A stretch of 64,000 nt of DNA from Kaistia defluvii (GTDB lineage Bacteria > Pseudomonadota > Alphaproteobacteria > Rhizobiales > Kaistiaceae), in assembly GCF_026343955.1 (NCBI RefSeq), contig NZ_JAPKNI010000008.1, positions 62,001-126,000 of the forward strand, read 5' to 3'. Numbering within the stretch: the first letter of the stretch is position 1; the number at the start of each line of letters is the position of its first letter. Made by a program: the position numbers and the translations under genes. The notes below the pieces were generated by a model, which saw only the letters and a list, made by a program, of their open reading frames with translations, searched no databases and was not told the DNA's origin. Shown here one piece after another: positions 5,175 through 21,876 of this stretch.

Positions 5175-5329
5175 GGCCTGGCAGTTCCCGTTGTTGGCGT
5201 GAGAGCGGGATGCCGTGCCTGAATGCTGGGTAGTGCTGTCCCTGCTGCTGATACAAACCGGACGCCGGGATTTTCACCCCGAGGGCACATTTTTTTCGCC
5301 GGCGGGGATGGCTATGTTCGCTCTGGCGT

Positions 5330-6289: not shown

Positions 6290-6389
6290 GCCGCTCCTCC
6301 GCCCATCGGCCCGCGTCGCGGCCGAGCCCCGTCCGTCCCGTTCCCGGGCCGTGGCGCGGCGCTCTTTTCCTCGCGTCCGGCATGTTCGC

Positions 6390-6893
6390 TCACAGCCCGC
6401 CGGTGCGCAGCACGATATGCCGGTAGGCTTCCCGGATCAGCGCCCAGGTCCGCGTGGTCGACAGGCCGAGGTCCTGCCCGATGGCGGCGATCGTCTGGCC
6501 GCCAAGGCGGTGGCGCTCGAAGGCGAGACGTGTCCGATCCGGCAACTCGGCCAGCGCCGCCTCGACCTGTCGCAATCGCTGGCGGTCGTAGATCACTGCC
6601 TCGGGCGAGGGCGCCGGATCCGCGACCCGCGTCAGCACGTCATCCGCCACATCGAGCATGGCCGAGCGCCGGATACGCTGGATGTGGTTGATGCTGAGAT
6701 GGCGCGAGACCTGGTGCAGGTAGGCGCGCGGATTGTGGTGCAGCGTGCCGTCCTGCGGCGGCGATGCCAGAACGCGCAGGAAGGTATCCTGTGTGATGTC
6801 GGCGGCCGTTTCCTCGGGGAGCCCGCGCCGCCGCAGTGCACGCGTGATCTCCTTGGCGTGGCGCCGAAACAGGCTCTGTATGTCCCAGCTCAT
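6390..6893 (-). CDS. ECF RNA polymerase sigma factor, FecI type
   Basis: 167-residue extracytoplasmic-function sigma factor: region 2 at about residues 10-75 (DITQDTFLRVLASP, NPRAYLHQVSRHLSINHIQR) and region 4 at about 110-160 (ALAELPDRTRLAFERHRLGG, then a helix-turn-helix QTIAAIGQDLGLSTTRTWAL). The start was set at the ATG at 6893 (MSWDIQSLF), because this gives the normal FecI N-terminus. An upstream in-frame ATG at 6986 would add 31 arginine/proline-rich residues with no family match. Together with the FecR and TonB receptor genes it forms a cell-surface signalling system. It probably drives transcription of the receptor operon when the ligand is bound. Confidence 0.9.
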   Translation of the reverse strand: MSWDIQSLFRRHAKEITRALRRRGLPEETAADITQDTFLRVLASPPQDGTLHHNPRAYLHQVSRHLSINHIQRIRRSAMLDVADDVLTRVADPAPSPEAVIYDRQRLRQVEAALAELPDRTRLAFERHRLGGQTIAAIGQDLGLSTTRTWALIREAYRHIVLRTGGL

Positions 6894-7180
6894 GCCCTGG
6901 CGCTCGCGCTGCCTTCGCCCGGCCGACCCCGCCATCGGGCCGGGGCATGGCAGCCTTCGGCCTTCGTGCAGGACGGGCGCGGACACGATCGGCGCTGCCA
7001 GCCGCGCGAGCGGATCCGGACAGGGCCTTCGGAACTATCGGTCGTGGACGTCGCAGTCATGGGAGTCGCGGTCATGGGCGTAGCGCGGGGTGGGGGAGGA
7101 GAGCCGCGCCGCCGACAGGGCGAGCGGTTCCGCCTGCTGCCGGAATAGCCCGAGCATAAAAGTGGTGCAACAACAATGAT

Positions 7181-7923: not shown

Positions 7924-7936
7924 TTGGTCAGACCAG
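7924..7936. promoter_or_regulatory. FCD-GntR operator in importer promoter, TTGGTCAGACCAG
   Basis: Fits the FadR-subfamily GntR consensus (T-nGT-nnn-ACn-A). It differs from the site in front of the regulator gene (TTGGTCCGACCAG, 21736-21748) only at the central base. It lies 35 bp before the GTG start of the substrate-binding protein, where a bound repressor would block transcription. Confidence 0.6.
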
Positions 7937-7971: not shown

Positions 7972-9654
7972 GTGCAGACATTCCCTCATACCTCCAGCGG
8001 CATGACGAGACGTCTGCCGGACGGCATTGGCGCCGCGCGGTCCCTGTGGCTGCGCAAGGCGCCGCTCAAGGGCATCTTCGCCGGCCTCGTCGGCGCCTTC
8101 ATGGCGACGACCGTGCTGGGCACCGTCGGCGCCTTCGCGCAGGACGCCAAGACCACGCTCGTCGTGGCCGCGCCGCGCACGCCGGAATCGCTGGACCAGG
8201 AATATCCGCCGACCGAAGCCGGCCATGAAGTGCGCCGCAACGTGTTCGAGCGCCTGCTGACCTACAAGCAGAAGAAGGGCGACGACGGCATCTTCTATGA
8301 AGACTTCGATACCATCGACGGCGCGCTGGCCGAGACGTGGGAAGTCTCGGACGACCGCAAGTCGATCACCTTCCACCTGCGCAAGGGCGTCAAGTCGGCG
8401 CTCGGCAACGAACTCAACGCCGACACGGTGATGTGGTCGTTCCTGCGCGGCTGGAACATGAAGTCCAATTTCCACTGGTACATGACGCAGATCTTCAAGA
8501 TCGAGGACTTCGACACCGCGTTCCAGAAGGTCGATGACTACACCGTCAAGGTCACGCTGCCCAATGCCTCGCCGCTGATCGAGCGGATCTGGATCAACAG
8601 CGATCTCGGCATTCTCGACTCGGTCGAGGTCAAGAAGCACCTGACCGATGCCGATCCGTGGGCCGCCTCCTGGCTCGCCACCAACACCGCCGCTTTCGGC
8701 CCGTATTTCATCAGCAAGTACAAGCCCGGCCAGGAAGTCGTCTACGACGCCAACCCGAACTATTTCCGCGGCGAACCGAAGCTGAAGCGCGTCATCCTGC
8801 GCGAGATGCCGACCTCGGCCAACCGCGTCGCCGCCATTCAGGCCGGCTCCGTCGACGTCGCCGAATATCTGCTGCCGCGCGAACTGGCGCTGCTCGAAAA
8901 GGCGCCCGGCGTCGAAGTGCACAAGGTGTTCGGCAACTTCATCCACCGCGTCGAGATGAACAACGCGATGCCGCCCTTCGACAACGTCAAGGTCCGGCAG
9001 GCCCTGAACTATCTGGTTCCGCGCGACGAGATCCTGAAGAGCGTCTATTTCAATACCGCGCGCTTCACCAAGAGCCCGATCTCGGAAATCTACCCGGGCT
9101 TCACGGACGAGTTCTTCGCCTATTCGAACGATCCGGCCAAGGCCAAGGCGCTGCTCGCCGAAGCCGGCTTCCCGGAAGGCTTCAAGACCCAGCTCGCCTA
9201 CCGCACCGGCGACCAGCTTGAAGAAGAAATGGCCGTCATCCTGAAGTCGGCCTTCGCCAAGGCCGGTGTCGACGTCGAACTGCTGAAGCTGCCGGCCTCG
9301 ACCCTGGTCGAGCGCTACACCAAGGGCGAAGTGCCGATGTACTTCTTCCGCGACATGGCGATCGTTCCCGATGCCGCCTATGTCGCCAATCTCTGGCTGA
9401 ACAGCGCCTCGGCGATCAACTACTCCAAGTTCAAGAGCGACGAGGTCGACCAGCTGATCGACAGCGGCCTCAAGAGCACGGATGAGCCGAAGCGCCTCGT
9501 CGACATGAAGCGCGTGCAGCAGATCACCATGGAGCAGGCCCCTTGGGTCTTCCTGATGAACCCCGGCTACCAGCTCGCCACGCGGGCCAACGTCAAGGGC
9601 TACTCCTGGTACACGCCGAACGGCAACGCCTTCTTCGACCTCTCGAAGGAATAG
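7972..9654 (+). CDS. ABC transporter substrate-binding protein, peptide (SBP_bac_5/DppA) type
   Basis: 560-residue periplasmic binding protein of cluster C (family 5), the group that binds peptides, nickel, opines and related solutes. The start is a GTG at 7972, preceded by a perfect AAGGAG at 7960-7965. No equally good ATG exists; the reading frame stays open to 7696 but that part has no ribosome site and is AT-rich leader DNA. A signal peptide follows a twin-Arg-free leader and ends ...GAFAQDAK (near residue 58). Family landmarks are LAETWEVSDDRKSITFHLRK and later YRGEPKLK-like motifs. It heads an operon with two permeases and a fused ATPase. The true ligand is not visible; the downstream ring-amide hydrolases suggest a cyclic amide or conjugate rather than ordinary dipeptides. 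Confidence 0.9.
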   Translation: MQTFPHTSSGMTRRLPDGIGAARSLWLRKAPLKGIFAGLVGAFMATTVLGTVGAFAQDAKTTLVVAAPRTPESLDQEYPPTEAGHEVRRNVFERLLTYKQKKGDDGIFYEDFDTIDGALAETWEVSDDRKSITFHLRKGVKSALGNELNADTVMWSFLRGWNMKSNFHWYMTQIFKIEDFDTAFQKVDDYTVKVTLPNASPLIERIWINSDLGILDSVEVKKHLTDADPWAASWLATNTAAFGPYFISKYKPGQEVVYDANPNYFRGEPKLKRVILREMPTSANRVAAIQAGSVDVAEYLLPRELALLEKAPGVEVHKVFGNFIHRVEMNNAMPPFDNVKVRQALNYLVPRDEILKSVYFNTARFTKSPISEIYPGFTDEFFAYSNDPAKAKALLAEAGFPEGFKTQLAYRTGDQLEEEMAVILKSAFAKAGVDVELLKLPASTLVERYTKGEVPMYFFRDMAIVPDAAYVANLWLNSASAINYSKFKSDEVDQLIDSGLKSTDEPKRLVDMKRVQQITMEQAPWVFLMNPGYQLATRANVKGYSWYTPNGNAFFDLSKE

Positions 9655-9724
9655 CGAACAGCGCGGCCTCGCCTCCGGGCGGGGCCGCATCTCCTTCTCC
9701 GGTTGCGAAGACAGGAAAGATCCG

Positions 9725-10780
9725 ATGACCGTGGCTGTTGCCAATCTTGGCGTCTACTGGCGGGCGATACCCCGGCCGTTGCGCATCATCACCAGCCGGC
9801 TCCTGATGCTGGTGCCGCAGATGTTCGGCGTCATGATGGTGACGTTCCTGCTGGTGCGCATGCTGCCCGGCGATCCGGCGCTGCTGCTCCTCGGCAACAT
9901 GGCGACGCCCGACACGATCGCGGCCTTCCGCGAGAAGCTGGGCCTCAATCTCAGCCTGTGGGAACAGTTCGTCCATTATGTCGGCAATGCGCTGCATGGC
10001 GATCTCGGCGTTTCCATCTTCACCTCGAACCCGGTCGTGACCGATCTGCTGGAGCGCGCCCCCGCGACGCTGGAACTGATCACCTACGCGATGCTGCTGA
10101 CGATCCTGATCGGCGTGACGCTGGCGATCATCTCCGTCGTCAGGGCCGGCGGCGTCGTCGACATCGGCAGCCGCGTCTACGGCCTCGCCGCCGGCGCCAT
10201 TCCCGATTTCTGGGTCGGGCTGCTGCTGATCTATTTCTTCTTCTACATTCTCGGCTGGGCGCCGGCCCCCTTCGGCCGGATCGATACCTTCGTGTCGCCG
10301 CCGGATACGGTGACGGGCTTCTACACCATCGACAGCCTGATCGCCGGCGATCTCAACGCCTTCGTCTCGTCGCTCGGACGGCTGACGCTCCCGGTCCTCA
10401 CGCTCGCCATCGTCAATGCCGGCGCGCTGATGAAGATGACCAAGACGACCTTCGCCGACATCTATCGCAGCGACTTCATCCGCCACGCACGCGCCTCGGG
10501 CCTTTCCGAAGGCACGATCCGCCGCATCGCGCTGCGCAACAGCCTGCCGCCGATCATCACCCTGGTCGGTTTCATGTTCGGCTTCCTGCTGGGCGCCGCC
10601 GTGCTGGTCGAGACGATCTTCGCCTGGGGCGGGCTCGGCCAGTATGCCGTGCAGTCGGTCGTCAACAGCGACTACCCGGCGCTGCAGGGCTTCGTCCTCG
10701 TCGCCGCGGCCTTTATCCTGATCGTCTACACGGTGGTGGACATCCTCTACGAACTCGCAGATCCGAGGATTCGCGTCTGA
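9725..10780 (+). CDS. ABC transporter permease, DppB/OppB type
   Basis: 351-residue inner-membrane permease, the first of a pair. It has an N-terminal helix (LLMLVPQMFGVMMVTFLLVR), the usual MLPGDPALLLLG segment after helix 1, and the cytoplasmic EAA loop near residues 255-275 (RHARASGLSEGTIRRIALRN) that contacts the ATPase. It starts 70 nt after the binding-protein stop; its stop overlaps the next start (ATGA at 10777-10782 region), so the two permeases are translationally coupled. N-terminus slightly longer than average (about 30 residues before helix 1). Confidence 0.92.
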   Translation: MTVAVANLGVYWRAIPRPLRIITSRLLMLVPQMFGVMMVTFLLVRMLPGDPALLLLGNMATPDTIAAFREKLGLNLSLWEQFVHYVGNALHGDLGVSIFTSNPVVTDLLERAPATLELITYAMLLTILIGVTLAIISVVRAGGVVDIGSRVYGLAAGAIPDFWVGLLLIYFFFYILGWAPAPFGRIDTFVSPPDTVTGFYTIDSLIAGDLNAFVSSLGRLTLPVLTLAIVNAGALMKMTKTTFADIYRSDFIRHARASGLSEGTIRRIALRNSLPPIITLVGFMFGFLLGAAVLVETIFAWGGLGQYAVQSVVNSDYPALQGFVLVAAAFILIVYTVVDILYELADPRIRV

Positions 10781-11619
10781 TGACCCGCTTCATCCGCTAC
10801 GTCTCCAGGCATCCGGGCGCGATGGTCGGGCTCACGCTCCTGGCCCTCCAGATCGCCTCGATCCTGTTCGCCCCCTGGCTCACCTTCTACTCGCCGGAGG
10901 AGGCCGATCCGCTGATGTCGCTGCAGCCCCCTTCGGCCGCGCACTGGTTCGGCACCGACGTCTCGGGCATGGATATCTATACCCGCATCGTCTACGCGAC
11001 CCGCATCAACCTGCTGATCAGCATCGTCGCCGTCGCCTTCGCCTTCGTCGTCGGCGTGCCGATCGGCCTGCTGATCGGCTTCTATCGCAACTGGATGAGC
11101 GCGCTGGTCATGCGCGTGTTCGATTTCATCCAGTCCTTCCCGGTCTTCGTGCTCGGCATGGCGCTGGTGTCGGTGATGGGGCAGGAGATCTGGAACGTTG
11201 CCATCGTGCTGGCGGTGCTGTTCATCCCGATGTTCGCCCGCCTGATCCGCGCCGAGGTGCTGTCGCTGCGCGAGCGGCCCTATGTCAGCGCGGCGCGCTG
11301 CAGCGGGGCGACGGACGGCTCGATCATGTTCCGCCACATCCTGCCCAACGCCTTGACGCCGGCCATCGTCCAGGTCTCGATCAGCATCGGCCTCGCCATC
11401 CTGCTCACCGCCGGCCTCTCCTTCGTCGGCGCCGGCGTGCGCATGCCGACGCCGGAATGGGGCCTGATGGTCTCGACCGGCGCGCAGCAGATGATCCTCG
11501 GCGTCTGGTGGGTGGCGCTGTTCCCCGGCCTTGCCATCGTCATCTCCGTGCTCAGCTTCGCGCTGCTCGGCGACATGGTGAAGGACCTTTCAGACCCGAC
11601 GACGAGGGAACGCCTATGA
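10780..11619 (+). CDS. ABC transporter permease, DppC/OppC type
   Basis: 279-residue permease partner. It has an N-terminal helix (MVGLTLLALQIASILFAPWL), the family motif HWFGTDVSGMDIYTRIVYA, five to six further helices and the EAA loop SLRERPYVSAARCSGATDGS. Start at the ATG at 10780, overlapping the stop of the first permease; the stop (11617-11619) overlaps the ATG of the ATPase. Function: channel of the importer together with the preceding permease. Confidence 0.92.
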   Translation: MTRFIRYVSRHPGAMVGLTLLALQIASILFAPWLTFYSPEEADPLMSLQPPSAAHWFGTDVSGMDIYTRIVYATRINLLISIVAVAFAFVVGVPIGLLIGFYRNWMSALVMRVFDFIQSFPVFVLGMALVSVMGQEIWNVAIVLAVLFIPMFARLIRAEVLSLRERPYVSAARCSGATDGSIMFRHILPNALTPAIVQVSISIGLAILLTAGLSFVGAGVRMPTPEWGLMVSTGAQQMILGVWWVALFPGLAIVISVLSFALLGDMVKDLSDPTTRERL

Positions 11620-13289
11620 GCGATCGCAACTCCACCGCTCTGCTCAAGGTCGACAATCTCTCGGTCGATTTCGGCGAGGGTACGCCCCAGGCGCTTTCGA
11701 ACATTTCGTTCAGCCTTGGCCGCGACGAGATCCTCGGCATTGTCGGCGAGACCGGCGCCGGCAAGTCGCTGCTCGCCCGCAGCCTGCTGAACCTGCTGCC
11801 CGAGGGCGGCCGCTTCACCAGCGGCGACATCCGCCTCGAGGGTGAGACGGTGCTTGGCATCAGCGAGGCCGAACAGCGCAAGATCCGCGGCGGCCGCATC
11901 GCGCTGATCGGCACCAATGCCAAGGCCCTGCTGTCGCCGGTCGAGACGGTCGGCGCGCAGATCGCCCGCGTGCTCCGCGCTCACCGCGACTGCAGCCAGA
12001 AGGAAGCCTGGAAGGCGGCCGTCGACCTGATGGTGCAGGTCGGCATCGTCAATCCGGAACGCCGAGCCAAGGCCTATCCGCACGAGCTTTCCGGCGGCAT
12101 GGCGCAGCGTATCGTCATCGCCATGGCGATGGTGGCCGGCCCCGACGTGGTGCTCGCCGATGACGCGACGCTCGGCCTCGACGCCACGATCCAGGTCCAG
12201 GTGCTCGACCTCCTGGTCAAGCGCTGCCGCGAACTCGGAGCCGGCGCGGTGCTGATCACCCACGATCTCGGCATCGTCGCCCATTATTGCGACCGCGTCG
12301 CGATCATGAAGGAGGGGCGGATCGTCGAACTGGAAGAGGTCGGCAAGTTCCTGGCCGCGCCGAAGGAACAATACGGCCGGGCGCTGCTCGATGCCGCGCG
12401 GGTCCGCCCGACGCCGATGGTCGCCAAGGTCGAGGATCCCGTGCTCGAGAAGCAGCCCGAGACGCCGCTGCTCGACGTGCGCCGCCTGCTCAAGCTGTTC
12501 CCGATCGCCGGCACGCCGGACGTGGTGCGCGCGATTGACGACGTGTCCTTCTCGGTCAAGCGCGGCGAGACGCTGGCGCTGGTCGGCGAGAGCGGCTCCG
12601 GCAAGACGACGGTCGGGCAGTGCCTCGTGCGGCTGCTCGACAGCGATGGCGGCGGCATCACCTTCGACGGCGCCGACATCACGACCATGCCGGCGGCCGA
12701 ATTCCGCGCCATGCGCCGGCGCATCCAGATGGTCTTCCAGGAGCCCTATGTCGCGCTCAACCCGCGCTGGCCGGTCAAGGCGCTGATCGCCGAACCGCTG
12801 CGCCTCGATCCGACGCTCGACCGCGCCGCGACCGACAAGCGGGTTCGCCAGCTGATCGACCTGGTGCAGCTTCCTGCCGGTATCGCCGAGGTCTATCCGC
12901 ATCAGCTGACGGCCGGCGAGCAGAAGCGCGTCGGCATCGCCCGGGCGCTGGCGACGCGGCCGGATTTCGTCGTCTTCGACGAGCCGACCACGGCGCTCGA
13001 TATCCGCGTCCGCGCCCAGATCATCGACCTGGTGCGCGACCTGCAGGCGGAGATGGGCATGTCGGCGCTGTTCATCACGCATGATCTCAATTCGGTGCGT
13101 TCGCTGGCGCATCGCGTCGCTGTCATGCGTTATGGCAAGATCGTCGAGGAGGGCGATACCGAGATGATCTTCTCCGCTGCGAAGGAAGACTACACCAAGG
13201 CGTTGCTGGCGGCCGAACTGCCGGTGGAACAGGGCACGGCCCAGCGCGACCGGGCCGAGACCCGACGTCTGGCGGGAGCCGCGGTATGA
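11616..13289 (+). CDS. Fused two-domain ABC transporter ATPase (DppD-DppF type)
   Basis: 557 residues with two nucleotide-binding domains in one chain, powering the importer. Domain 1: Walker A GETGAGKS (44-51), signature LSGGM (158-162), Walker B VVLADD (178-183). Domain 2: Walker A GESGSGKT (324-331), signature LTAGE (431-435), Walker B VVFDEP (452-457). Domain 1 has Asp at position 183 where the catalytic Glu is expected, and domain 2 has a degenerate signature. The site made from these two parts should be weak, while the other composite site is canonical. Start overlaps the permease stop; the stop overlaps the epimerase start. The assignment is firm; the asymmetry is read directly from the sequence. 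Confidence 0.93.
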   Translation: MSDRNSTALLKVDNLSVDFGEGTPQALSNISFSLGRDEILGIVGETGAGKSLLARSLLNLLPEGGRFTSGDIRLEGETVLGISEAEQRKIRGGRIALIGTNAKALLSPVETVGAQIARVLRAHRDCSQKEAWKAAVDLMVQVGIVNPERRAKAYPHELSGGMAQRIVIAMAMVAGPDVVLADDATLGLDATIQVQVLDLLVKRCRELGAGAVLITHDLGIVAHYCDRVAIMKEGRIVELEEVGKFLAAPKEQYGRALLDAARVRPTPMVAKVEDPVLEKQPETPLLDVRRLLKLFPIAGTPDVVRAIDDVSFSVKRGETLALVGESGSGKTTVGQCLVRLLDSDGGGITFDGADITTMPAAEFRAMRRRIQMVFQEPYVALNPRWPVKALIAEPLRLDPTLDRAATDKRVRQLIDLVQLPAGIAEVYPHQLTAGEQKRVGIARALATRPDFVVFDEPTTALDIRVRAQIIDLVRDLQAEMGMSALFITHDLNSVRSLAHRVAVMRYGKIVEEGDTEMIFSAAKEDYTKALLAAELPVEQGTAQRDRAETRRLAGAAV

Positions 13290-14215
13290 GCGACAAGGCA
13301 GTTCTCGTCACCGGCGCTGCCGGCCTGGTCGGCAATGTCGTGCGCCGGAAGCTGGAGACGCAGGGGCGCGCCGTCGTCGCGATCGACCGGGTCGACCGCA
13401 GCGCGGACGGCCAGCCGATCATCCCCTGCGACGTCAACGACATCCACCGCCTGCATGCCGTCGTCACCGATCACGACGTCGACGCGATCATCCATTGCGG
13501 CGCCTATTCCGGCCCGATGGTGGCGCGCGACAATCCCTATTCCATGGTGCAGGTCAACATCGTCGGCACCGCCAACATGCTGGAACTGGCCCGCGTGCAT
13601 AAGATGCGGCGCCTGGTGTTCTGTTCCTCGACCAGCGCCTATGGCAATACGCCGGAGGGGCCGGTTCCCGAGGATGTCCCGCTCTATCCGACCACGGTCT
13701 ATGGCGCGAGCAAGGCGGCGAGCGAGCAGCTGGTCTGGACCTATTTCCGCCAGTTCGGTGTCGATGCGGTGGCGCTGCGGCTCTCCTGGGTCTACGGCCC
13801 CGGCCGCACGACGGACTGCATGATCCGCACCCTGATCGAGGATGCGCTCGCCCGGCGGCCGACGCGGGTGCCGTTCGGCGCCGATTTCCATCGCCAGTAC
13901 ATCCATGTCGACGATGCCGCGGGGGCGCTTTTGCTGGCGCTCGACGCCGCCGACCTGCCGCGTCGCATCTATACGGTGACGGGCGGCACCTATCATACGC
14001 TGCAGGAGATCGGCGACATCGTGAAGACGGTTCTTCCCGAGGCCGACATCGAGATGCAGCCCGGCGCCGATCCGGTCGACGAGGTGCATCGGCGCTTCGA
14101 TATCTCGGCCGCCCAGCGCGATCTCGGCTATGCGCCGAGCTTCGACCTCGAGGCCGGAATAAGGTCCTATGCCGACTGGATCGCCAGCCGGAAGCCGAAT
14201 GCGGGAGCCCATTGA
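13286..14215 (+). CDS. NAD-dependent epimerase/dehydratase (extended SDR)
   Basis: 309-residue extended short-chain dehydrogenase. N-terminal NAD-binding motif GAAGLVG (residues 10-16), a central CSSTSAYG segment, and the catalytic YxxxK as YGASK near residue 141. The fold and length match sugar-nucleotide or sugar-acid epimerases/dehydrogenases such as uronate dehydrogenase. It overlaps the ATPase stop by 4 nt and the next SDR by 1 nt, so it is a core member of the catabolic operon. The substrate cannot be read from sequence; it may modify a side chain of the imported compound. Confidence 0.85.
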   Translation: MSDKAVLVTGAAGLVGNVVRRKLETQGRAVVAIDRVDRSADGQPIIPCDVNDIHRLHAVVTDHDVDAIIHCGAYSGPMVARDNPYSMVQVNIVGTANMLELARVHKMRRLVFCSSTSAYGNTPEGPVPEDVPLYPTTVYGASKAASEQLVWTYFRQFGVDAVALRLSWVYGPGRTTDCMIRTLIEDALARRPTRVPFGADFHRQYIHVDDAAGALLLALDAADLPRRIYTVTGGTYHTLQEIGDIVKTVLPEADIEMQPGADPVDEVHRRFDISAAQRDLGYAPSFDLEAGIRSYADWIASRKPNAGAH

Positions 14216-14970
14216 TGAACGAATTTTCGCTTGCAGGCCGCAAGGCCCTCGTCACCGGCGGCAGCCGCGGCATTGGTGGCGAGACGGTCGAGCTCTTCGC
14301 CCGCTACGGCGCCGAAGTCGCCTTCTGCCACTATGGCGACGCGACGAATGCCGAGGCGCTGGTCGCCCGGCTGGCCGGCGAGGGCTACACGGTCCATGCG
14401 ACCGAGTGCAACGTCGCCGAGGAAGCCTCCGTCGACGCGATGGCCGCCTGGGCCAAGGAAAAGCTCGGCCAGGTCGACATCCTCGTCAACCTCGCCGGCA
14501 TTGGCGGCGACAAGGCCTTTGTCGATATCTCGGTCGCCGATTGGGACCAGATGCTGGGCGTGCATCTGCGCGGCACCTTCCTGGTCACGCGCCATTTCTT
14601 CGGCGACATGCTGGCGCGCGGCTATGGGCGGGTGATCAACTGCGCCTCGCAGCTCGCCTATAAGGGCGCACCGGGGCTGGCGCATTATTGCGCCGCCAAG
14701 GCCGGCCTCGTCGGCTTCACCCGCGCGCTTTCCTATGAGGGCGCGCCGCATGGCGTCACCGTCAACGCGATCGCGCCGGGCGCCACTGAAACCGCGCTTC
14801 TGAACGGCCTCAGCCAGGAATGGCGCGACATGAAGAAGGCCCAGCTGCCGATCGGCCGTTTCGGCAAGGTGTCGGAAATCGCCCCGACCATCCTGATGCT
14901 CGCCTCGGACGCCGGTGCCTACTATGTCGGCCAGACGCTGTCGCCGAATGGCGGCGACGTGATGGTCTGA
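14215..14970 (+). CDS. SDR-family oxidoreductase (classical, 3-oxoacyl reductase-like)
   Basis: 251-residue classical short-chain dehydrogenase: cofactor motif TGGSRGIGG near residue 14, NLAG in place of the usual NNAG, a Ser around residue 142 (CASQLAY), and catalytic YCAAK. The ATG at 14215 overlaps the previous stop (TGATG) and follows GGGAG. The C-terminus ends GQTLSPNGGDVMV, typical of the family. Likely oxidizes or reduces a hydroxyl/keto group of the substrate handled by this operon; the specific reaction is unknown. Confidence 0.85.
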   Translation: MNEFSLAGRKALVTGGSRGIGGETVELFARYGAEVAFCHYGDATNAEALVARLAGEGYTVHATECNVAEEASVDAMAAWAKEKLGQVDILVNLAGIGGDKAFVDISVADWDQMLGVHLRGTFLVTRHFFGDMLARGYGRVINCASQLAYKGAPGLAHYCAAKAGLVGFTRALSYEGAPHGVTVNAIAPGATETALLNGLSQEWRDMKKAQLPIGRFGKVSEIAPTILMLASDAGAYYVGQTLSPNGGDVMV

Positions 14971-15010
14971 CGGCCGCCTGCAAGAAAACGTCCGATCCGG
15001 AGAGGGCTCC

Positions 15011-16444
15011 ATGAGCGACTATGATCTCGTCATCCGCGGCGGCACCGTCGTCACCGCGTCCGATACGCTGCGCGCCGATGTCGGCATCCGCGACGGCCGC
15101 ATCATCGCCGTCGCCGAAAAGCTCGACGATGCCGAGCGCATCATCGACGCCACCGGCCTGCTGGTCATGCCGGGCGGCATCGACAGCCATGTGCACCTGG
15201 CACAGCCGGCCTTTGGCGGCCCGGCCATGGCCGACGGCTTCGAGAGCGGCACGCGCTCGGCGATCGCCGGCGGCAATACGACGGTGATCCCGTTCGCGCT
15301 GCAGCCGCGCGGCGCATCGTTGCGCTCCAGCGTCGTCGACTACCACAAGGAAGCCGACGGCAATTCCTATTGCGATTATGGCTTCCACCTGATCATTTCC
15401 GACCCGAGCCCGAGCGTGCTCGGCCAGGAGCTGCCTTCGCTGGTCGATGACGGCTACTCGTCGTTCAAGGTCTTCATGACCTATGACGACCTCGTGCTGA
15501 ACGACCGGCAACTGCTCGAGGTGTTCGACTGCGCGCGCGGTTGCGGCGCGCTCGTCATGGTCCATTGCGAGGGCTATGACGCGATCCGCTTCATGACCGA
15601 GAAGCTCGAGGCGGCCGGCAAGAAGGCGCCCTATTATCACGGCGTGTCGCGGCCGCAATCGGTCGAGCGCGAGGCGACGCACCGCGCCATCAGCCATGCG
15701 GAGCTTACCGACGTGCCGATCATGGTCGTGCATGTCTCCGGGCGCGAGCCGATGGAGCAGATCCGCTGGGCCCAGCAGAAGGGCCTCAAGGTCTATGCCG
15801 AGACCTGCCCGCAATATGTCGCGCTCACCGCCGACGACATGAAGGGCCTCAACATGGACGAGAGCGGCGGCAAATATGTCTGCTCGCCGCCGCCGCGCGA
15901 CCATGCCAGCTGGGACGCGATCTGGGAGGGCATCCGCACCGGCGTGTTCCAGACCTTCTCGTCCGACCATTGCCCGTTCTTCTACGAAGGCGAGATGGGC
16001 AAGCTCAATCCCAAGGCGCGCACCTCCTTCCGCTGGGTGCCGAACGGCATTCCCGGCGTCGAGACGCGGCTGCAGATCCTCTACCAGAAGGGGGTCGTCG
16101 AGGGCCGCATCACGGTCAACGAGTTCGTCGCGCTGACCTCGACCAACCACGCCAAGATCTATGGCCTCTATCCGAAGAAGGGCTCGATCGCGCCCGGCTT
16201 CGACGCCGACATCGTGCTGTGGGACCCCAACCGCAAGGAGACCATCCGGCAGGAGCTGATGCATCACGGCGCCGACTACACGCCCTATGAAGGGCTGGAG
16301 GTTACCGGCTGGCCGGTCATGACCGTGCTGCGCGGCAAGGTCGTGATGCAGGATGGCGAGATCGTCGGCGAGCCCGGCGATGGCGGCTTCCTGAAGCGCT
16401 CGCTTTCGCCCTACGCTGTGCCGAACGGCGCCGCTCCCCTGTAA
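15011..16444 (+). CDS. hydA: Dihydropyrimidinase / D-hydantoinase-type cyclic amidohydrolase
   Basis: 477-residue zinc amidohydrolase that opens cyclic amides (hydantoins, dihydropyrimidines, some imides). All metal ligands of the family are visible: H60 and H62 (DSHVHL), the carboxylated lysine K153 (SSFKVFMTY), H185 (MVHCE), H241 (VVHVS) and D319 (FSSDHCP). Start ATG at 15011 follows GGAGAGGG. The protein is the usual length for a D-hydantoinase. It is the clearest clue to the operon's purpose: an imported ring amide is opened here. It could act on dihydrouracil in pyrimidine breakdown, but no beta-ureidopropionase or dihydropyrimidine dehydrogenase is adjacent. Confidence 0.92.
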   Translation: MSDYDLVIRGGTVVTASDTLRADVGIRDGRIIAVAEKLDDAERIIDATGLLVMPGGIDSHVHLAQPAFGGPAMADGFESGTRSAIAGGNTTVIPFALQPRGASLRSSVVDYHKEADGNSYCDYGFHLIISDPSPSVLGQELPSLVDDGYSSFKVFMTYDDLVLNDRQLLEVFDCARGCGALVMVHCEGYDAIRFMTEKLEAAGKKAPYYHGVSRPQSVEREATHRAISHAELTDVPIMVVHVSGREPMEQIRWAQQKGLKVYAETCPQYVALTADDMKGLNMDESGGKYVCSPPPRDHASWDAIWEGIRTGVFQTFSSDHCPFFYEGEMGKLNPKARTSFRWVPNGIPGVETRLQILYQKGVVEGRITVNEFVALTSTNHAKIYGLYPKKGSIAPGFDADIVLWDPNRKETIRQELMHHGADYTPYEGLEVTGWPVMTVLRGKVVMQDGEIVGEPGDGGFLKRSLSPYAVPNGAAPL

Positions 16445-16458
16445 CGAACGGATATTCC

Positions 16459-17217
16459 ATGACGCAGCCCATCGCCATCATCACCGGCGCCGGCATCGGC
16501 ATCGGCCGGGCCACCGCCTTCACCTTCGCCCGCGCCGGCTATCATGTCGTGGTGACCGACGTCCTCGAGGCGGAAGGCAACGCCGTCGCCGAGGGCATCC
16601 GCGCGGAGGGCGGCAGCGCCGAGTTCCAGTTTCTCGACGTCACCTCGACCGAGCGCACCGATGCGCTGGTCGCCGATGTCGAGGCGCGCTTCGGCCAGAT
16701 CGACGCGATCATCGCCAATGCCGGCATCGCCAAGAAGGTGCCGCTCGCCGACCTCACAGACGACCAGTGGGACCGCACGCTCGACGTCGACCTGAAGGGC
16801 GTGCTGCGCATCATCCGCGCCGCGGCCCCCGGGATGCGCCGCCGCAAGTCCGGCGCCATCGTCGCGCTGTCCTCGATCATGGGCGTCGCCTATGGCTGGG
16901 ACGAGCATGTCCACTATTCCGCCGCCAAGTCCGGCGTCGTCGGCCTGGTGCGCGGGCTTGGCGTCGAGCTCGCCCCGGACGGCGTCCGCGTCAACGGCAT
17001 CGCGCCCGGCTATATCCGCACGGCGCAGGCGCTGTCGAAGGAGCACTCGCTCGGCCCCGAGGGGTTGGAGCAGGCGGCGTCCTTCATCCCGATGGGCCGC
17101 GTGGGCGAGCCGGAAGACATTGCCGACGTCATCCTCTTCCTCGCCTCGCCCGGCTCGCGCTATATCACCGGCCAGGTCATCGTCGTCGACGGCGGCCTGC
17201 TCGTCGGCCGCTACTGA
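16459..17217 (+). CDS. SDR-family oxidoreductase
   Basis: 252-residue classical SDR with TGAGIGIGRA (cofactor loop, about residues 9-18), NAGIAKK replacing NNAG-like motif at about 90, catalytic YSAAK near 154, and the typical ending GQVIVVDGGLLVGRY. It begins 15 nt after the hydantoinase stop and belongs to the same transcript. It is the third NAD(P)-dependent dehydrogenase of the operon. Its specific substrate cannot be inferred. Confidence 0.87.
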   Translation: MTQPIAIITGAGIGIGRATAFTFARAGYHVVVTDVLEAEGNAVAEGIRAEGGSAEFQFLDVTSTERTDALVADVEARFGQIDAIIANAGIAKKVPLADLTDDQWDRTLDVDLKGVLRIIRAAAPGMRRRKSGAIVALSSIMGVAYGWDEHVHYSAAKSGVVGLVRGLGVELAPDGVRVNGIAPGYIRTAQALSKEHSLGPEGLEQAASFIPMGRVGEPEDIADVILFLASPGSRYITGQVIVVDGGLLVGRY

Positions 17218-17338
17218 AAATCCGGTCGCCGGTCGCCTTGGCGGCGGTCGGCGTCTTTCCTCATTCCCTGCAGGATCCGTCCGGAATGCCCCCGTTCCGC
17301 GATCCTTTTCGCGTCTCGCGCGAATGGAGTTGGTTTCC

Positions 17339-18319
17339 ATGTCCCAGATCACCCTGATCACGACCGGCGGCACCATCGCCTCCCGGCTCGCCGCCGACGG
17401 CCGCGATGTCGTCGCCAGTATTTCCGGCGCCGACCTGCGCGAAACGCTGCAGGATCCGCTGGAGGGCATCGGGATCACGATCGACGAATTCTGCAATGTC
17501 GGCAGCTACGCGATCGACCTGCCGCTGGCTTTTGGTTTGGCGAAGCGGATCGCCGAGCATCTCGCTGATCCCGCCTGCGACGGCGTCGTCGTCACCCATG
17601 GCACCGACACGATGGAGGAGAGCGCCTGGATGGCCGATCTCCTCGTCGCCAGCGAAAAGCCCATCGTCTTCACCGGCGCGCAGCGGAGCGCCGATGAGCC
17701 CGATACGGACGGCCCGCGCAACATCGCCGCGGCGATCCGCATCGCCGCGAGCCCTGCCGCGCGCGGGCTCGGCGTCATGATCGCCTTCGAGCAGGATTTC
17801 CACGCCGCGCGCGACGTCACCAAGACCCACACCTCGCGCGTCGACACCTTCCGCTCCGGTGAACATGGCAAGCTGGGGGAGATCGATGGCGAGCGCGTCC
17901 TCGTCCAGCGCAAGCCCTTGGTGCGCAAGACCTATTCGGCCGAGCGGGTCGAGACGGATGTCGAGCTGATCAAGATGGTGATGGGCGCCTCCGACCGCGC
18001 CATCCGCTTCGCGGCATCGAGCGGCGCCAAGGCGATCGTGCTGGAAGGATTTGGCCGCGGCAACGCCACGCCGGATGTCACGCGGGCGGTCGAGGAACTG
18101 GCCGAAACCGGCATCCCCGTCATCGTCACGTCGCGCTGCCCGGAAGGCCGCGTCAAGCCGATCTACGGCAATGGCGGCGGCAAGGATCTGGAGCGCGCCG
18201 GGGTGATCTTCGCCGGCGACCTGACCGGCATCAAGGCGCGCATCCTCGCCTCGGTGCTGCTGGGCCTGGGGCTGGACCGGGAAGAGATCCGGGCGGAGTT
18301 TGAACTGCTGGGCGGGTAG
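17339..18319 (+). CDS. Asparaginase-family amidohydrolase (EcAII-like fold, cytoplasmic)
   Basis: 326-residue member of the asparaginase/glutaminase family. Catalytic elements: first threonine in TTGGTIAS (T12), second triad in THGTDTMEE (T89-D90) and the lysine in RDVTKTHT. There is no signal peptide, so it works in the cytoplasm. Start at the ATG at 17339 (MSQITL), with GGAG about 9 nt before it. As the last gene of a ring-amide operon it may act as the half-amidase that removes ammonia after ring opening; plain asparagine hydrolysis is the default alternative. A 120-nt gap separates it from the SDR. Confidence 0.88.
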   Translation: MSQITLITTGGTIASRLAADGRDVVASISGADLRETLQDPLEGIGITIDEFCNVGSYAIDLPLAFGLAKRIAEHLADPACDGVVVTHGTDTMEESAWMADLLVASEKPIVFTGAQRSADEPDTDGPRNIAAAIRIAASPAARGLGVMIAFEQDFHAARDVTKTHTSRVDTFRSGEHGKLGEIDGERVLVQRKPLVRKTYSAERVETDVELIKMVMGASDRAIRFAASSGAKAIVLEGFGRGNATPDVTRAVEELAETGIPVIVTSRCPEGRVKPIYGNGGGKDLERAGVIFAGDLTGIKARILASVLLGLGLDREEIRAEFELLGG

Positions 18320-18410
18320 GGGGCTTTCTTAGCCTCTGCCATGGGGAGAGGTCGACGGCGAAGCCGGCGGTGAGGGGTTGCGATCCCACCGGACAGGCCC
18401 CTGGGTTTCT

Positions 18411-18442
18411 GCCGTCATCCTCGCTTTCGCGAGGATGACGGC
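18411..18442. repeat. REP-like palindrome / terminator hairpin
   Basis: A 14-bp perfect stem (GCCGTCATCCTCGC / GCGAGGATGACGGC) closed by TTTC. This GTCATCCTCGC-type inverted repeat is a common dispersed intergenic element in Hyphomicrobiales. It lies between the convergent asparaginase (plus) and GTPase (minus) genes and could terminate both transcripts. Confidence 0.7.
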
Positions 18443-18494
18443 GAGCTTGACGATGCGCCCTGCGGAAATCCGCTCCAGGAGCGCCAGTCCGTCC

Positions 18495-19586
18495 TCACGC
18501 GCTCTTCGCCAGCCCGGCCGCCAGCGGCGCCAAGCCGTTGAAGGCGCGGAAGGAGCGCTCGACCAGGGCCGGGTCGAGCCCCCTGGCGATCACCACGAGA
18601 TGCGTGCCGGTGACGCCGTCCGGCCAGCGCTCGAGATGCATCGGCTTGTGGATCAGGTGCTGCACGCCCTGGATCACGACCGGGCTGGCATTGCCATCGA
18701 TGTCGAGTAGACCCTTCAGCCGCAAGATCTCGCCGCCATGCCGGTTGAGCAGCATCGACAGCCAGAGCCCGAAGCGCGCCCAGTTGAGCGGCGCATCGCC
18801 CGTCAGCACGAAGGCGCGGATGTCGCCGTGCCGGTTGATGTCGTGCTCATGCGCGTGGTGCGCATGGTCATGATGAGGGTGGCCGTGATGGTCGTGCGTG
18901 TGCGTCTCGGCCTTGAGCCAGCGGCTCACCTCCGCTCCACGCGCGGAAATGTCGTGGATGTCGCGCACGAACAGTGCCTCGTCGGGCTGCATGGTTTCGC
19001 AGAGTTCGAGGATTTCGGCCGCCGGGTTGAGCGCTTCGAGCCGGGCGCGCAGGCGGGCGGTGTCCTCGGCCGGGGCGATGTCGCTCTTCGAGACGATGAT
19101 CCGGTCGGCGACGGCGACCTGCCGCTGCGATTCCGCGAAAGCGTCGAGGTTGCTCCAGCCGTTCGGCACGTCGACCACCGTGACGATGTTGCCGACGCGA
19201 AAATGATGCCGCAGCATCGGGTCGGCGGAGAGCGTGGCGACGATGGGCGCGGGGTCGGCGATGCCCGTCGTCTCGATCGCGATGCGGGAAAAGCGGGGGA
19301 TCTCGCCGCTGCGGCTGCGCTCGAACAGCGACAGCAGGGCGGTCTTCAGATCGGTGCGGATGTTGCAGCAGATGCAGCCGCTTTTCAGAAGCACGATGTC
19401 GTCGTCGATCGCCTCGACGAGCAGGTGATCGAGCCCGACTTCGCCGAACTCGTTGATGATGACCGCCGTGCCGGAAAGCGAGGGCAGGGCGAGCAGTCGC
19501 TTCAGGAGTGACGTCTTGCCGGCGCCGAGAAAGCCGGTCAGCACATTGGCGGTGATCCGGTCGTCGATTTCGTCCGGGGCGGTCAT
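18495..19586 (-). CDS. G3E-family GTPase (CobW / COG0523 metallochaperone-like)
   Basis: 363-residue GTPase of the COG0523 group, which loads metals (often zinc or cobalt) into enzymes. Walker A GFLGAGKT (18-25), the hallmark metal site CICC (C71, C73, C74), ETTGIADP switch region, and SKSD at 166-169 where NKxD is usual. A striking histidine-rich stretch at 229-253 (about 13 His in 25 residues) separates it from the C-terminal CobW_C domain. It overlaps the upstream CGLCG gene by 1 nt and follows the deacetylase/imidase gene. Its client may be that zinc enzyme or the D-hydantoinase across the intergenic region. Confidence 0.9.
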   Translation of the reverse strand: MTAPDEIDDRITANVLTGFLGAGKTSLLKRLLALPSLSGTAVIINEFGEVGLDHLLVEAIDDDIVLLKSGCICCNIRTDLKTALLSLFERSRSGEIPRFSRIAIETTGIADPAPIVATLSADPMLRHHFRVGNIVTVVDVPNGWSNLDAFAESQRQVAVADRIIVSKSDIAPAEDTARLRARLEALNPAAEILELCETMQPDEALFVRDIHDISARGAEVSRWLKAETHTHDHHGHPHHDHAHHAHEHDINRHGDIRAFVLTGDAPLNWARFGLWLSMLLNRHGGEILRLKGLLDIDGNASPVVIQGVQHLIHKPMHLERWPDGVTGTHLVVIARGLDPALVERSFRAFNGLAPLAAGLAKSA

Positions 19587-19891
19587 CAGGAAATTCCCTC
19601 CATCCGGTCGAGGGTGGCCGGGTCGAGCGGGTCGAAGGTTCGGCCGGTGAGCCTTTCCGCTTCCGGCCAGATGGCGCCGAAATGGTCGAGGATGGCGGTC
19701 TTGCCGTTGCGGGCGCGTAGCGTGAAGCGGCCGGCCCATTCGTCCAGCGTCAGGCCATAGGGCTTCAGGATCTGGTTGGCGATGCGGGCGCGCGCCTGCC
19801 GCTCGGCCGCGGGCGTCAGCCCGGTCGCCGTAGCGGCGCTGCCGCCGGTCCAGTGGTCGCTGCCGCCAAAGGCGCCGCACAATCCGCACAT
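19586..19891 (-). CDS. Small CGLCG-motif protein of unknown function, coupled to G3E GTPase
   Basis: 101 residues starting MCGLCGAFGGSDHWTGG. I do not recognise a named domain. The N-terminus has a CxxCG pair that could bind metal; the rest is predicted soluble, with ...PYGLTLDEWAGRFTLRARNG and ...HFGAIWPEAERLTGRTFDPL segments. The ATG at 19891 was chosen because the CGLCG motif then sits at the very N-terminus; an upstream in-frame start at 20029 adds a low-complexity Arg-rich leader. The stop overlaps the GTPase start (TGATG). Close coupling to a metallochaperone GTPase suggests a partner or adaptor in metal delivery. Confidence 0.75.
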   Translation of the reverse strand: MCGLCGAFGGSDHWTGGSAATATGLTPAAERQARARIANQILKPYGLTLDEWAGRFTLRARNGKTAILDHFGAIWPEAERLTGRTFDPLDPATLDRMEGIS

Positions 19892-19970
19892 CGTCTCGTC
19901 CTTCCGGCCCGGGCCTCGGGGGCACGGCGGCGATCCGAAAACCGCCGCCGCGCAGTTTAGTACCGCTCGA

Positions 19971-20870
19971 TCAGGACTGCGGCCGCGCCGTGCCACTCTT
20001 CGGGAAGCGCTTGGCGAAGTCTTCGGCAATGGTTTCCATCGTCACGAACTTCACGCCCTCGAAGCCCTTCATGTATTCGAACAGCCGCTCATGCATCTTC
20101 AACACATGCGGCTTGCCCGAGACGTCGGGATGGATGGTCAGCGGGAAGACGGCGTAATCGTAATTCTCGTAGACCCAGTCGAACTGGTCCTTCCACATCT
20201 GCTCGATATCGCGCGGATTGACGAAGCCGTGGCTGTTCGGCGAGGCCTTGATGAACATCATCGGCGGCAGGTCGTCGAGATACCAGGAGGCGGGGATCTC
20301 GATCAGGTCGGTCTCTTCGCCCTGCACATAGGGCTTCATCCAGGTCGAGGGATGCTTCGAATAGTCGATCTTGGTCCATTCGTCGCCGACCGTCACGTAA
20401 TAGGGGTGATGGTCGTTGTGCATCAGCGAGTGGTCGTACTTGATGCCCTTCTGCTTCAGGAGCTCGTTGGTCTTGGAACCGAACTCCCACCACGGCGCAA
20501 CGTAGCCGCGCGGCGGCTTGCCGGAGAGCTTGGTGATCAGCTCGACGCATTTGTCGAAGATCGCCTCTTCCTGCTCGGGCGTCATGGCGATCGGATTTTC
20601 ATGGCTGTAGCCATGCATGCCGATCTCGTGGCCGGCATCCGCCACGGCCTTCATCTCGGTCCAGAAGCTCTCGATCGAGTGGCCGGGGATGAACCAGGTG
20701 GTCTGGATGCCCCACTTCTCGAACATCCGCAGCAGGCGGGCACTGCCGACATGGCCGGCGAAGGCGCCGCGCGAGATGTCGCAAGGGCTATCCTCGCCGC
20801 CATAGGAGCCAAGCCAGCCGGCTACGGCGTCGACGTCGATCCCGTAGGATACGAAGATCTCTTTCGGCAT
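19971..20870 (-). CDS. Polysaccharide-deacetylase-fold hydrolase, HpPgdA / cyclic imide hydrolase type
   Basis: 299-residue NodB-fold enzyme. Motifs include [20 protein letters not shown], the metal ligands D14, H86 and H90 ([12 protein letters not shown]), [10 protein letters not shown], and DHSLMHND. These match the Helicobacter HP0310/HpPgdA protein closely as I recall it. Cyclic imide hydrolases (imidases) from Pseudomonas belong to the same subgroup. The lack of a signal peptide and the position beside a GTPase metallochaperone, and near a D-hydantoinase and asparaginase, favour a cytoplasmic imidase over peptidoglycan deacetylation. Start at the ATG at 20870. Confidence 0.85.
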
Positions 20871-20914
20871 GTCGTTCCTTTCCGCTTAACATCGGGGCGG
20901 CGGGCCGCCCGCTT

Positions 20915-21676
20915 TCAGACCAGTTCAACGATGGAGATGCCGACGCGATGAGCCGTGCGGCTCAGATGGCGTCGCATGTAGTAACCCGCGCCCTCGGGAT
21001 CGTTCATCACCAGCGCTTCGACCACGCGCTCATGCTCGGCGACGGGATCCCAGAGCTTTTCCCGGGTGATCGGCAGCCGCGTGCTCTCGATCAGCACGCT
21101 GGCATAGCTGTGATGAATGTCCGAGAGCAGCCGGTTGCGCGAGAAGCGCATGATCATGGCGTGAAACTCGAAATCGACCTGCGCGAAGGCATCGACGTCG
21201 AACAGCCGCGCCGCCGTGCGGAAGGCCTGCAGATTGTCCTTGAGCAGGCCGATCTCCGGCGCGGTCAGCGCCATCGCCGCGAGCTGTGCCGCCTGGCTCT
21301 CGGCGATATAGCGCACCTGGTAGACTTCGGCCGGGCTGTAGCGGGCCGAGAAGCGCCACGACATGGCCGCGCCGGATTCCGCCACCGCATTGGGGTCGCG
21401 CACGAAAGTGCCGCGCCCGGGTTCGATCGACACCAGCCCGACGGTGGCCAGGATGGAGAGGGCCTCGCGCAGCGTGGCGCGGCTCACATTGAGTTCGCGC
21501 GCTAGCTGGCGCTGCGCCACGAGCGCCTCGCCGGCGACCAGTTCGCCATCCTCGATCATCCTGCGCAGCTTGACGACCGCAAGTTGCGCCAGGCTGGCAT
21601 TCGGGGTGGATGGGTCGCTGGAACCGCCTCCGGTCAGACCGGTTTCGATATCCTGGGTGCTGGTGTCTGCCGTCAT
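20915..21676 (-). CDS. GntR-family transcriptional regulator, FCD (FadR) subfamily
   Basis: 253 residues: winged helix at about 30-95 ([51 protein letters not shown]) and an all-helical FCD ligand domain after residue 120, with metal-binding histidines suggested by FHAMI and HERVVEAL. The gene begins 204 bp from the divergent PadR gene and precedes the imidase/GTPase genes on the same strand. Palindromes in its promoter (21736-21748) and within its first codons (21630-21642) match sites upstream of the importer operon. It therefore probably represses both itself and that operon until an acidic catabolite binds. Confidence 0.9.
   Translation of the reverse strand: MTADTSTQDIETGLTGGGSSDPSTPNASLAQLAVVKLRRMIEDGELVAGEALVAQRQLARELNVSRATLREALSILATVGLVSIEPGRGTFVRDPNAVAESGAAMSWRFSARYSPAEVYQVRYIAESQAAQLAAMALTAPEIGLLKDNLQAFRTAARLFDVDAFAQVDFEFHAMIMRFSRNRLLSDIHHSYASVLIESTRLPITREKLWDPVAEHERVVEALVMNDPEGAGYYMRRHLSRTAHRVGISIVELV
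21630..21642. promoter_or_regulatory. GntR operator inside the regulator's own coding start
   Basis: Perfect 13-bp palindrome CCGGTCAGACCGG within codons about 12-16 of the GntR gene. Same GGTCAGACC core as the sites at 7320, 7500 and 7926. A second autoregulatory site downstream of the start is plausible. Confidence 0.4.
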
Positions 21677-21735: not shown

Positions 21736-21748
21736 TTGGTCCGACCAG
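21736..21748. promoter_or_regulatory. GntR operator in the regulator promoter, TTGGTCCGACCAG
   Basis: Differs only at the central base from the 7924-7936 site in the importer promoter. It lies about 60 bp before the GntR start codon, consistent with autorepression. Confidence 0.6.
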
Positions 21749-21836
21749 ACTTTGATTTGTGCAATCGCACGGTGCATCCGCCAGTCAAAAAGGCAGGTGC
21801 GGCCGAAGACAGTCTCGATACGGTCGAGATAGTTCG

Positions 21837-21876
21837 CGATATATCTTGATTTACGATATATCGAGATCTATATCGG
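21837..21876. promoter_or_regulatory. AT-rich GATATATC repeats before the PadR gene
   Basis: Two copies of the palindrome GATATATC (21838-21845 and 21855-21862, centres 17 bp apart) and a third half-copy CTATATCGG at 21868-21876, ending 4 nt before the PadR start. Repeats of this kind are a likely operator for a YqjI-type autorepressor. No Shine-Dalgarno sequence is visible in the short leader. Confidence 0.5.

Follow-up and report, generated by a model that had tools for sequence, protein, structure and literature searches.

A 64,000-nucleotide stretch of Kaistia defluvii DNA (assembly GCF_026343955.1, contig NZ_JAPKNI010000008.1, positions 62,001 to 126,000; hereafter the window) carries two gene blocks that together resemble a catabolic regulon for small nitrogen heterocycles. 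The source genome is a 4.9 Mb draft in 21 contigs. The plus-strand block (7972-18319) and the minus-strand block (21676-18495) are convergent, with their ends facing each other, and neighbouring genes within each block overlap or sit no more than about 120 bases apart, as in operons. An earlier note on this DNA, made from the letters alone, had listed an ATP-binding cassette (ABC) importer, a D-hydantoinase, an asparaginase-family enzyme, three dehydrogenases, a NodB-fold enzyme, a CGLCG protein and a G3E GTPase in two facing blocks. Domain searches (Pfam, NCBIfam) and motifs confirmed all of them.

The plus block begins with the solute-binding protein of the importer (7972-9654; SBP_bac_5, dipeptide/opine type, Pfam 284 bits), whose gene has a GTG start at 7972 preceded by AAGGAG. 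It is followed by two permeases (9725-10780, BPD_transp_1; 10780-11619, start approximate, BPD_transp_1 and OppC_N) and an ATPase with two nucleotide-binding domains (11616-13289, start approximate, two ABC_tran stretches). The remaining genes encode an extended short-chain dehydrogenase/reductase (SDR) of the NAD-dependent epimerase/dehydrogenase family, here called epim (13286-14215; PF01370, Epimerase), SDR1 (14212-14970; PF13561), which recurs near NodB, a D-hydantoinase/dihydropyrimidinase-type enzyme (15011-16444), SDR2 (16459-17217; PF13561), and an asparaginase-fold amidase that is a candidate half-amide hydrolase (17339-18319, start approximate; PF00710, Asparaginase, and PF17763, Asparaginase_C). 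The hydantoinase exceeds both model cut-offs (TIGR02033, 534.5 bits against 393; PRK13404, 713 against 647), and its motifs HVHL, SFKVF, VHCE, VHVS and SDHC, aligned to 1nfg, are present, which upholds the description of a D-hydantoinase with all metal ligands. We take these motifs to supply the ligands and the carbamylated lysine, and assign the asparaginase and G3E motifs their roles on the same assumption. The asparaginase-fold protein has the TGGTIAS, HGTDT and TKT motifs besides both Pfam domains, and scores below the cut-off for type II L-asparaginase (TIGR00520, 206.4 against 314.3). A second hydantoinase-type gene, 39% identical, lies elsewhere in the genome (G000:C12:322651-324015, L003) and is perhaps the housekeeping dihydropyrimidinase.

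The minus block encodes, in the direction of reading, a GntR/FCD regulator (20915-21676; PF00392 and PF07729), a NodB-fold hydrolase of the HpPgdA/cyclic-imidase type (19971-20870), a 101-residue CGLCG protein of an undescribed family (19586-19891), and a G3E (COG0523) GTPase that is probably dedicated to this cassette (18495-19583; cobW and CobW_C). Walker A, GCICC and a His-rich loop are present in the GTPase, which falls below the equivalog cut-offs of CobW (120.8/332.1), ZigA (96.1/600) and PRK11537 (165.4/361).

The draft genome has exactly two copies of the 13-mer TTGGTCNGACCAG, one ahead of each block, and none of its reversed control. As TTGGTCAGACCAG it stands before the ABC/hydantoinase operon (7924-7936, plus strand), with similar sites in relatives; as TTGGTCCGACCAG, located by the 13-mer search, it stands before the GntR-NodB-CGLCG-G3E operon (21736-21748, plus strand). 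The 11-mer TGGTCNGACCA is found twice in the window against 0.04 expected, at 7925-7935 (importer gene) and 21737-21747 (GntR gene), and at four places genome-wide, with 13 for its reversed control; one of the two places outside the window adjoins a different GntR gene. The motif resembles the FadR operator. Among the 103 loci compared, a window-type GntR was found by tblastn in eight, and all eight have sites resembling TTGGTCNGACCAA within or next to promoter regions of GntR, importer or asparaginase genes. The best site is perfect in L056, L060 and L072, has one mismatch in the window and L058, and two in L057, L073 and L119. For L057 and L058 this site falls where the GntR match begins, and a further site with three mismatches lies upstream. 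Background counts in 384,440 bases were 0 sites at up to one mismatch, 5 at two and 72 at three, and two-mismatch sites therefore count for less. Of nine plasmid loci, both that carry a similar GntR have operator-like sites (two perfect ones in Mesorhizobium L230, and one with two mismatches ahead of the operon in Skermanella L231), bringing the total to 10/10 loci with a similar GntR gene. The proposal that the blocks form one regulon is strongly supported by the common 13-mer at both promoters and by a single-operon homologue in Skermanella, and the GntR protein is the putative regulator that would bind both sites. Two GATATATC palindromes at about 21835-21865 lie just ahead of a PadR gene (21881), possibly as PadR's own operator; they were set aside as the GntR site since they adjoin the PadR start.

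The gene set and operator recur in other genomes and are therefore beyond chance. The earlier note had proposed a search for the same neighbourhood in relatives, and the set was indeed found again. On plasmid pSR-2 of Skermanella rosea, a GntR gene is followed by ureidoglycolate lyase, binding protein, permease, permease, ATPase, epim, SDR1, hydantoinase, SDR2, asparaginase, NodB, CGLCG and G3E genes in one collinear operon; a protein annotated as hypothetical there is CGLCG by hidden Markov model (HMM; E 2.7e-37). These proteins are 57-88% identical to those of the window, except GntR (39%), and the operon is flanked on both sides by transposase genes within about 7 kb. Paracoccus plasmid pAK1 is a looser match, in which an importer-epim-SDR-hydantoinase operon is convergent with a polyamine-type importer, asparaginase, NodB, CGLCG (confirmed by HMM, E 3.1e-20) and G3E. 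Its hydantoinase is close to the window's (77% identity) but its NodB (59%) and asparaginase (34%) are distant, and SDR2 was not found at the locus, pointing to a separate assembly. The window arrangement minus the asparaginase is seen in L057 and L058. In the 20.9 kb retrieved for the K. terrae locus L055, NodB, CGLCG and G3E (the trio) and the asparaginase are present but the hydantoinase block is not. L138 keeps the importer, epim, SDR1 and hydantoinase genes and has no SDR2, asparaginase or trio. Since the hydantoinase and imidase blocks are each seen without the other, they are separable and the system is modular. L170 combines an amidase-signature (AS) amidase, a CN-hydrolase, a D-hydantoinase (573 bits against 393), epim, the trio and an isochorismatase-domain gene. 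Besides Skermanella, epim stands in one cluster with the hydantoinase in 5/7 further plasmid loci inspected. Neighbour clusters in these loci were named by eye, with HMM checks for nine proteins and for ten further neighbours, and our gene finder misplaces some starts. NodB homologues were also seen on 83 plasmid records and CGLCG on 61, some of them conjugative.

The members of the trio keep together across genomes. In the order sample, NodB was found in 15/199 genomes (E 1e-60) and CGLCG in 15/199 (E 0.001), with both in 14 (Fisher p 2e-19, uncorrected for kinship); in the phylum sample, each was found in 10/398 genomes, and the ten are identical. Both samples contain related genomes, so that p values overstate independence, and G000 and G034 belong to both. 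A G3E gene lies within 10 kb of NodB in 78/80 named loci (the nearest of 593 confirmed, and thus a biased set), 13/15 order-sample loci and 8/8 further phylum-sample loci. As a control, 0/20 hydantoinase neighbourhoods, drawn from 19 of 39 genomes and three of them shorter than 19.9 kb, had a G3E, CGLCG, NodB or asparaginase match (E 1e-8, >45 bits; CGLCG also by HMM). The G3E tree comprised 94 cassette proteins and 18 paralogues; 92/94 cassette rows, the window's among them, form one branch free of paralogues (Shimodaira-Hasegawa-like approximate likelihood ratio support, SH-aLRT, 99). L170 and L034 fall outside it, and several rows are long-branched. The paralogues come solely from ten cassette-bearing genomes, not every paralogue of which was taken; usable rows came from all but nine of the 103 cassette loci and from 18/19 paralogue loci. 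GCxCC is present in 93/94 cassette rows and in 18/18 paralogue rows. The NodB tree implies no fewer than 12 switches of importer type and 16 of amidase type, with CGLCG and G3E mostly constant. These results support the view that CGLCG and G3E form a dedicated metallation pair for the NodB enzyme. Of the earlier claim of an own metallochaperone, the adjacency, the near-perfect co-occurrence of CGLCG with NodB and the separate G3E branch are borne out, and metal transfer itself is what we infer from them. A homologue of a binding protein (cluster 5, e.g. L025 6729-7961), seemingly without signal peptide by eye, stays close to G3E also in loci whose importer belongs to the major facilitator superfamily (MFS), and might be a cytoplasmic sensor.

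In 92 CGLCG sequences, C2, C5, W14, G63 and D87 are invariant, and position 13 is H in 86/92. The window protein has no Pfam or NCBIfam match, and over 68 members Pfam gave only ten families, each in a single member (E 0.013-0.098). The family profile matched no PDB sequence up to E 1. An AlphaFold model (mean predicted local distance difference test score, pLDDT, 82.9) has a low-confidence N-terminal tail with the Cys pair, followed by one helix, three strands and two more helices; the best PDB fold match, at E 0.28, falls short of 0.001. The MCG start is shared with class-II glutamine amidotransferases, and that assignment was rejected on the low-confidence start, the small alpha/beta body and the lack of a fold match. 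A probably flexible CxxC...H tail, in a protein encoded beside a metal GTPase, suggests that CGLCG may hand over metal. The family HMM matches 92/95 loci (80 named, 14 order-sample and the window) and misses L033, L035 and L099; the L033 contig stops shortly past NodB, and CGLCG and G3E of the same genome lie at the end of another contig.

The closest PDB match of the window NodB protein is HpPgdA of Helicobacter pylori (HP0310; 3qbu, 464.5 bits, 291/299 residues, E 1.4e-138), with near full-length homology and the same metal and active-site residues. D12 and D14 are kept in 102/103 homologue rows and H86, H90 and H247 in 103/103; the bulky W127 and W196 of the HpPgdA-type site are also present, and are kept in 102-103/103. 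These residues and the Trp pair are named for HpPgdA in PMC3084791. The window protein is 99% identical to its K. terrae counterpart, and its N-terminus is not signal-peptide-like by eye. All listed NCBIfam deacetylase models that match it score below cut-off. HpPgdA is named a peptidoglycan deacetylase, but it has no signal peptide, its active site suits a small molecule, and the purified enzyme was inactive on N-acetylglucosamine, chitotriose, acetylated polyamines, acetyl-dipeptides and allantoin (PMC3084791). It is grouped structurally with the fungal cyclic imidase HxnM, which was modelled on it and is 64% identical to AAY98498, a Pseudomonas putida cyclic imide hydrolase homologue (PMC9304392). 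Given the HpPgdA homology, these relatives, and deacetylase and PuuE scores below cut-off, "imidase-type" is the best family reading of the putative enzyme. Peptidoglycan deacetylation was rejected as the first-choice function because purified HpPgdA is inactive and the neighbour genes are catabolic. Remote NodB homologues (41-50%) were noticed in haloarchaea.

The neighbours of NodB bear on the pathway. Both SDRs lie within 10 kb of it in 35/80 named, 10/15 order-sample and 6/8 phylum-sample loci, and SDR2 is 62-76% identical to the SDR2 of cassettes with polyamine importers. An amidase lies within the same distance in 41/80, 7/15 and 6/8 loci, respectively; among the named loci 30/80 have the AS type and 11 the asparaginase type, and one has a second AS type beside the asparaginase. 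Two unrelated amidase folds in one slot would fit a half-amide step. In a Mesorhizobium locus the asparaginase occurs with genes annotated as tartrate dehydrogenase and enolase-superfamily enzyme, hinting at a hydroxy-dicarboxylate product. A hint of ureides comes from related hydantoinase operons, which include ureidoglycolate lyase and in two cases PuuE as well. Ureidoglycolate as a general product is weakened, as no ureidoglycolate lyase gene (PF04115) was found in the window's genome. The cyclic-imide/ring-amide chemistry proposed earlier is supported by the HpPgdA/imidase family and the recurring SDR and amidase neighbours; the substrate class and the activity are predictions from these. 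In the window's own genus, the trio also occurs in another cluster (L030 3209-17940, and L032) with an HpaB-type monooxygenase, an AS amidase, PuuE-like and Amdase/EutA-like genes and an amidohydrolase (by eye).

Blastobacter sp. A17p-4 is said to degrade imides with an imidase, a half-amidase and a D-hydantoinase, the same set of activities as predicted for the window, and its imidase is reportedly dihydropyrimidinase-like. The closest worked-out parallel is the lower nicotinate (Hxn) pathway of Aspergillus nidulans, in which the SDR HxnW makes the cyclic imide, the HpPgdA-like NodB-fold imidase HxnM opens the ring and the amidase HxnN frees ammonia, in sequence (PMC9304392). Pseudomonas and Burkholderia cassettes resemble it further in having an amidase-signature enzyme and an MFS transporter. 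The window lacks the complete Hxn-type set with an amidase-signature amidase and has the asparaginase-fold enzyme instead, together with the ABC importer, hydantoinase, CGLCG and G3E, and no pyridine hydroxylases in its blocks. The available part of PMC9304392 mentions no helper proteins for AAY98498. Hydantoin-utilization (hyu) clusters often include a carbamoylase, unlike the two blocks here, and one Aminobacter strain has a hydantoinase gene near ABC transporter genes (PMC3546935). As with COG0523 proteins such as the nitrile hydratase activator, one G3E GTPase is tied to one metalloenzyme (PMC2770081), but here the likely client is NodB-fold, and CGLCG, as third conserved partner, is nearly always nearby. 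The main text of PMC2770081 has no words in imid-, hydantoin- or allantoin-, and "deacetylase" occurs in its reference list only. The enzyme families are known; the assembled operon, for which the earlier note knew of no precedent, and the CGLCG family were not found described in the open-licence literature searched, partly as excerpts, with older biochemistry journals outside that scope.

We consider it fairly probable that the two blocks form a substrate-induced regulon by which the cell uses small N-heterocycles, namely cyclic imides and ring amides akin to them, and that the imidase is served by its own metallation pair. The GntR/FCD protein would repress its own operon and the importer operon from TTGGTCNGACCAG, and binding of the substrate or of an intermediate would release it. 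Uptake of the substrate would fall to the ABC system; SDR2, SDR1 and the extended SDR may oxidise a ring hydroxyl in the manner of HxnW, giving a cyclic imide; the NodB-fold metalloenzyme, presumably cytoplasmic, would convert the imide to a half-amide, from which the asparaginase-fold amidase would strip ammonia. The hydantoinase may open a related ureide or lactam ring. The G3E GTPase and CGLCG, with its low-confidence and probably flexible N-terminal Met-Cys-x-x-Cys...His tail, would load a divalent metal into NodB.

Several observations weigh against this proposal. The P. putida cyclic imide hydrolase is reportedly active when made in Escherichia coli, which would argue against an absolute need for helpers. 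In the order sample, G092 has NodB without CGLCG, and G166 has CGLCG without NodB. In 39/80 named loci, L057 and L058 included, no amidase was found in the 10 kb around NodB; none of the three scored importer types was found in 47/103 loci, and in several importer-less loci the trio stands beside seemingly unrelated genes (by eye). Four plasmid loci with hydantoinase operons and other GntR genes (L232, L233, L235 and L236) have no operator within two mismatches. Moreover, deacetylase activity on crude peptidoglycan extracts, with indirect mutant support, is cited for HP0310, and its structural relative PuuE acts on allantoin, a ureide on which HpPgdA itself is inactive (PMC3084791). The peptidoglycan result, the deacetylase names borne by the family and the polyamine-type importers that recur beside NodB (noted in PMC3084791 too) would all suit a NodB enzyme that deacylates an imported N-acylated small molecule, leaving the amidase and SDRs to process the freed amine. 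This explanation seems improbable to us, since purified HpPgdA left all the acetylated substrates listed above untouched, amidases of two folds and sometimes hydantoinases recur beside NodB, and NodB relatives are reported as imidases (PMC9304392).

We also think it unlikely that the route is mainly one for ureides of the hydantoin or allantoin kind, with NodB a PuuE-like ureidase and the imide label wrong. It would explain the ureidoglycolate lyase and PuuE genes of related hydantoinase operons and the hydantoinase relatives that adjoin ureidoglycolate lyase (L135; L151 by eye), but NodB reaches only 61 bits against the PuuE allantoinase model (TIGR03212, cut-off 424.6), the lyase was not found in the window's genome as noted, and the block proteins gave no CN_hydrolase or peptidase match and showed no carbamoylase or allantoate-hydrolase domain. 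Another possibility is that the client of CGLCG and G3E is not NodB alone but the hydantoinase or both ring-opening enzymes. At the G166 locus (L216 8273-9629; 3-1145, 5927-7372) the CGLCG-G3E pair and a GntR-like gene, without NodB at E 1e-60, stand beside two hydantoinase/dihydroorotase-like genes that score below every NCBIfam cut-off, and a branched-chain-type importer adjoins them (by eye); the client of the pair may therefore vary. In almost every other locus, however, the pair is near NodB and mostly without a hydantoinase (within 10 kb in 2/80, 1/15 and 2/8 loci), and we hold this explanation to be decidedly doubtful. Chance adjacency of two unrelated operons is suggested by loci that have only one block (L055, L138, Aminobacter), but the common 13-mer found nowhere else in the genome, the single operon in Skermanella and the adjacency in Paracoccus, L057 and L058 bring it close to refutation, and we regard it as highly implausible.

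A bolder version of the preferred proposal, possible though on balance not likely, makes CGLCG a new family of metal-transfer adaptor that, with G3E, metallates ring-opening amide hydrolases, NodB in nearly all loci and, in G166, a hydantoinase-like enzyme. The SDRs would then interconvert a cyclic carbinol-amide and an imide, the hydantoinase opening one redox state and NodB the other, as with hydroxyhydantoin/parabanate- or hydroxyimide-type pairs. Such an adaptor might also account for the apparent inactivity of recombinant HpPgdA. If the regulon proposed here is real, a family filed as "polysaccharide deacetylase" would be tied to the breakdown of small nitrogen rings in soil bacteria, plant-associated bacteria and carriers of plasmids, and a dedicated metal-loading GTPase would gain a likely client, along with a small protein family tied to that client. 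One regulator, two promoters and one importer make the substrate question testable.

Some further genes were noticed near the cassettes. AHS1/AHS2 genes (urea-carboxylase/5-oxoprolinase-like) lie upstream of the GntR gene GntR11 in Rhizobium-type loci (e.g. L088 and L118), and were seen within 10 kb in 17/80 named loci; a biotin carboxylase gene is near the imidase cassette in 2/80. In the window itself, the minus strand of 2604-6986 carries genes for a TonB-dependent receptor, a FecR-like protein and a sigma-factor-like protein (by eye), a signalling set of the iron-uptake type.

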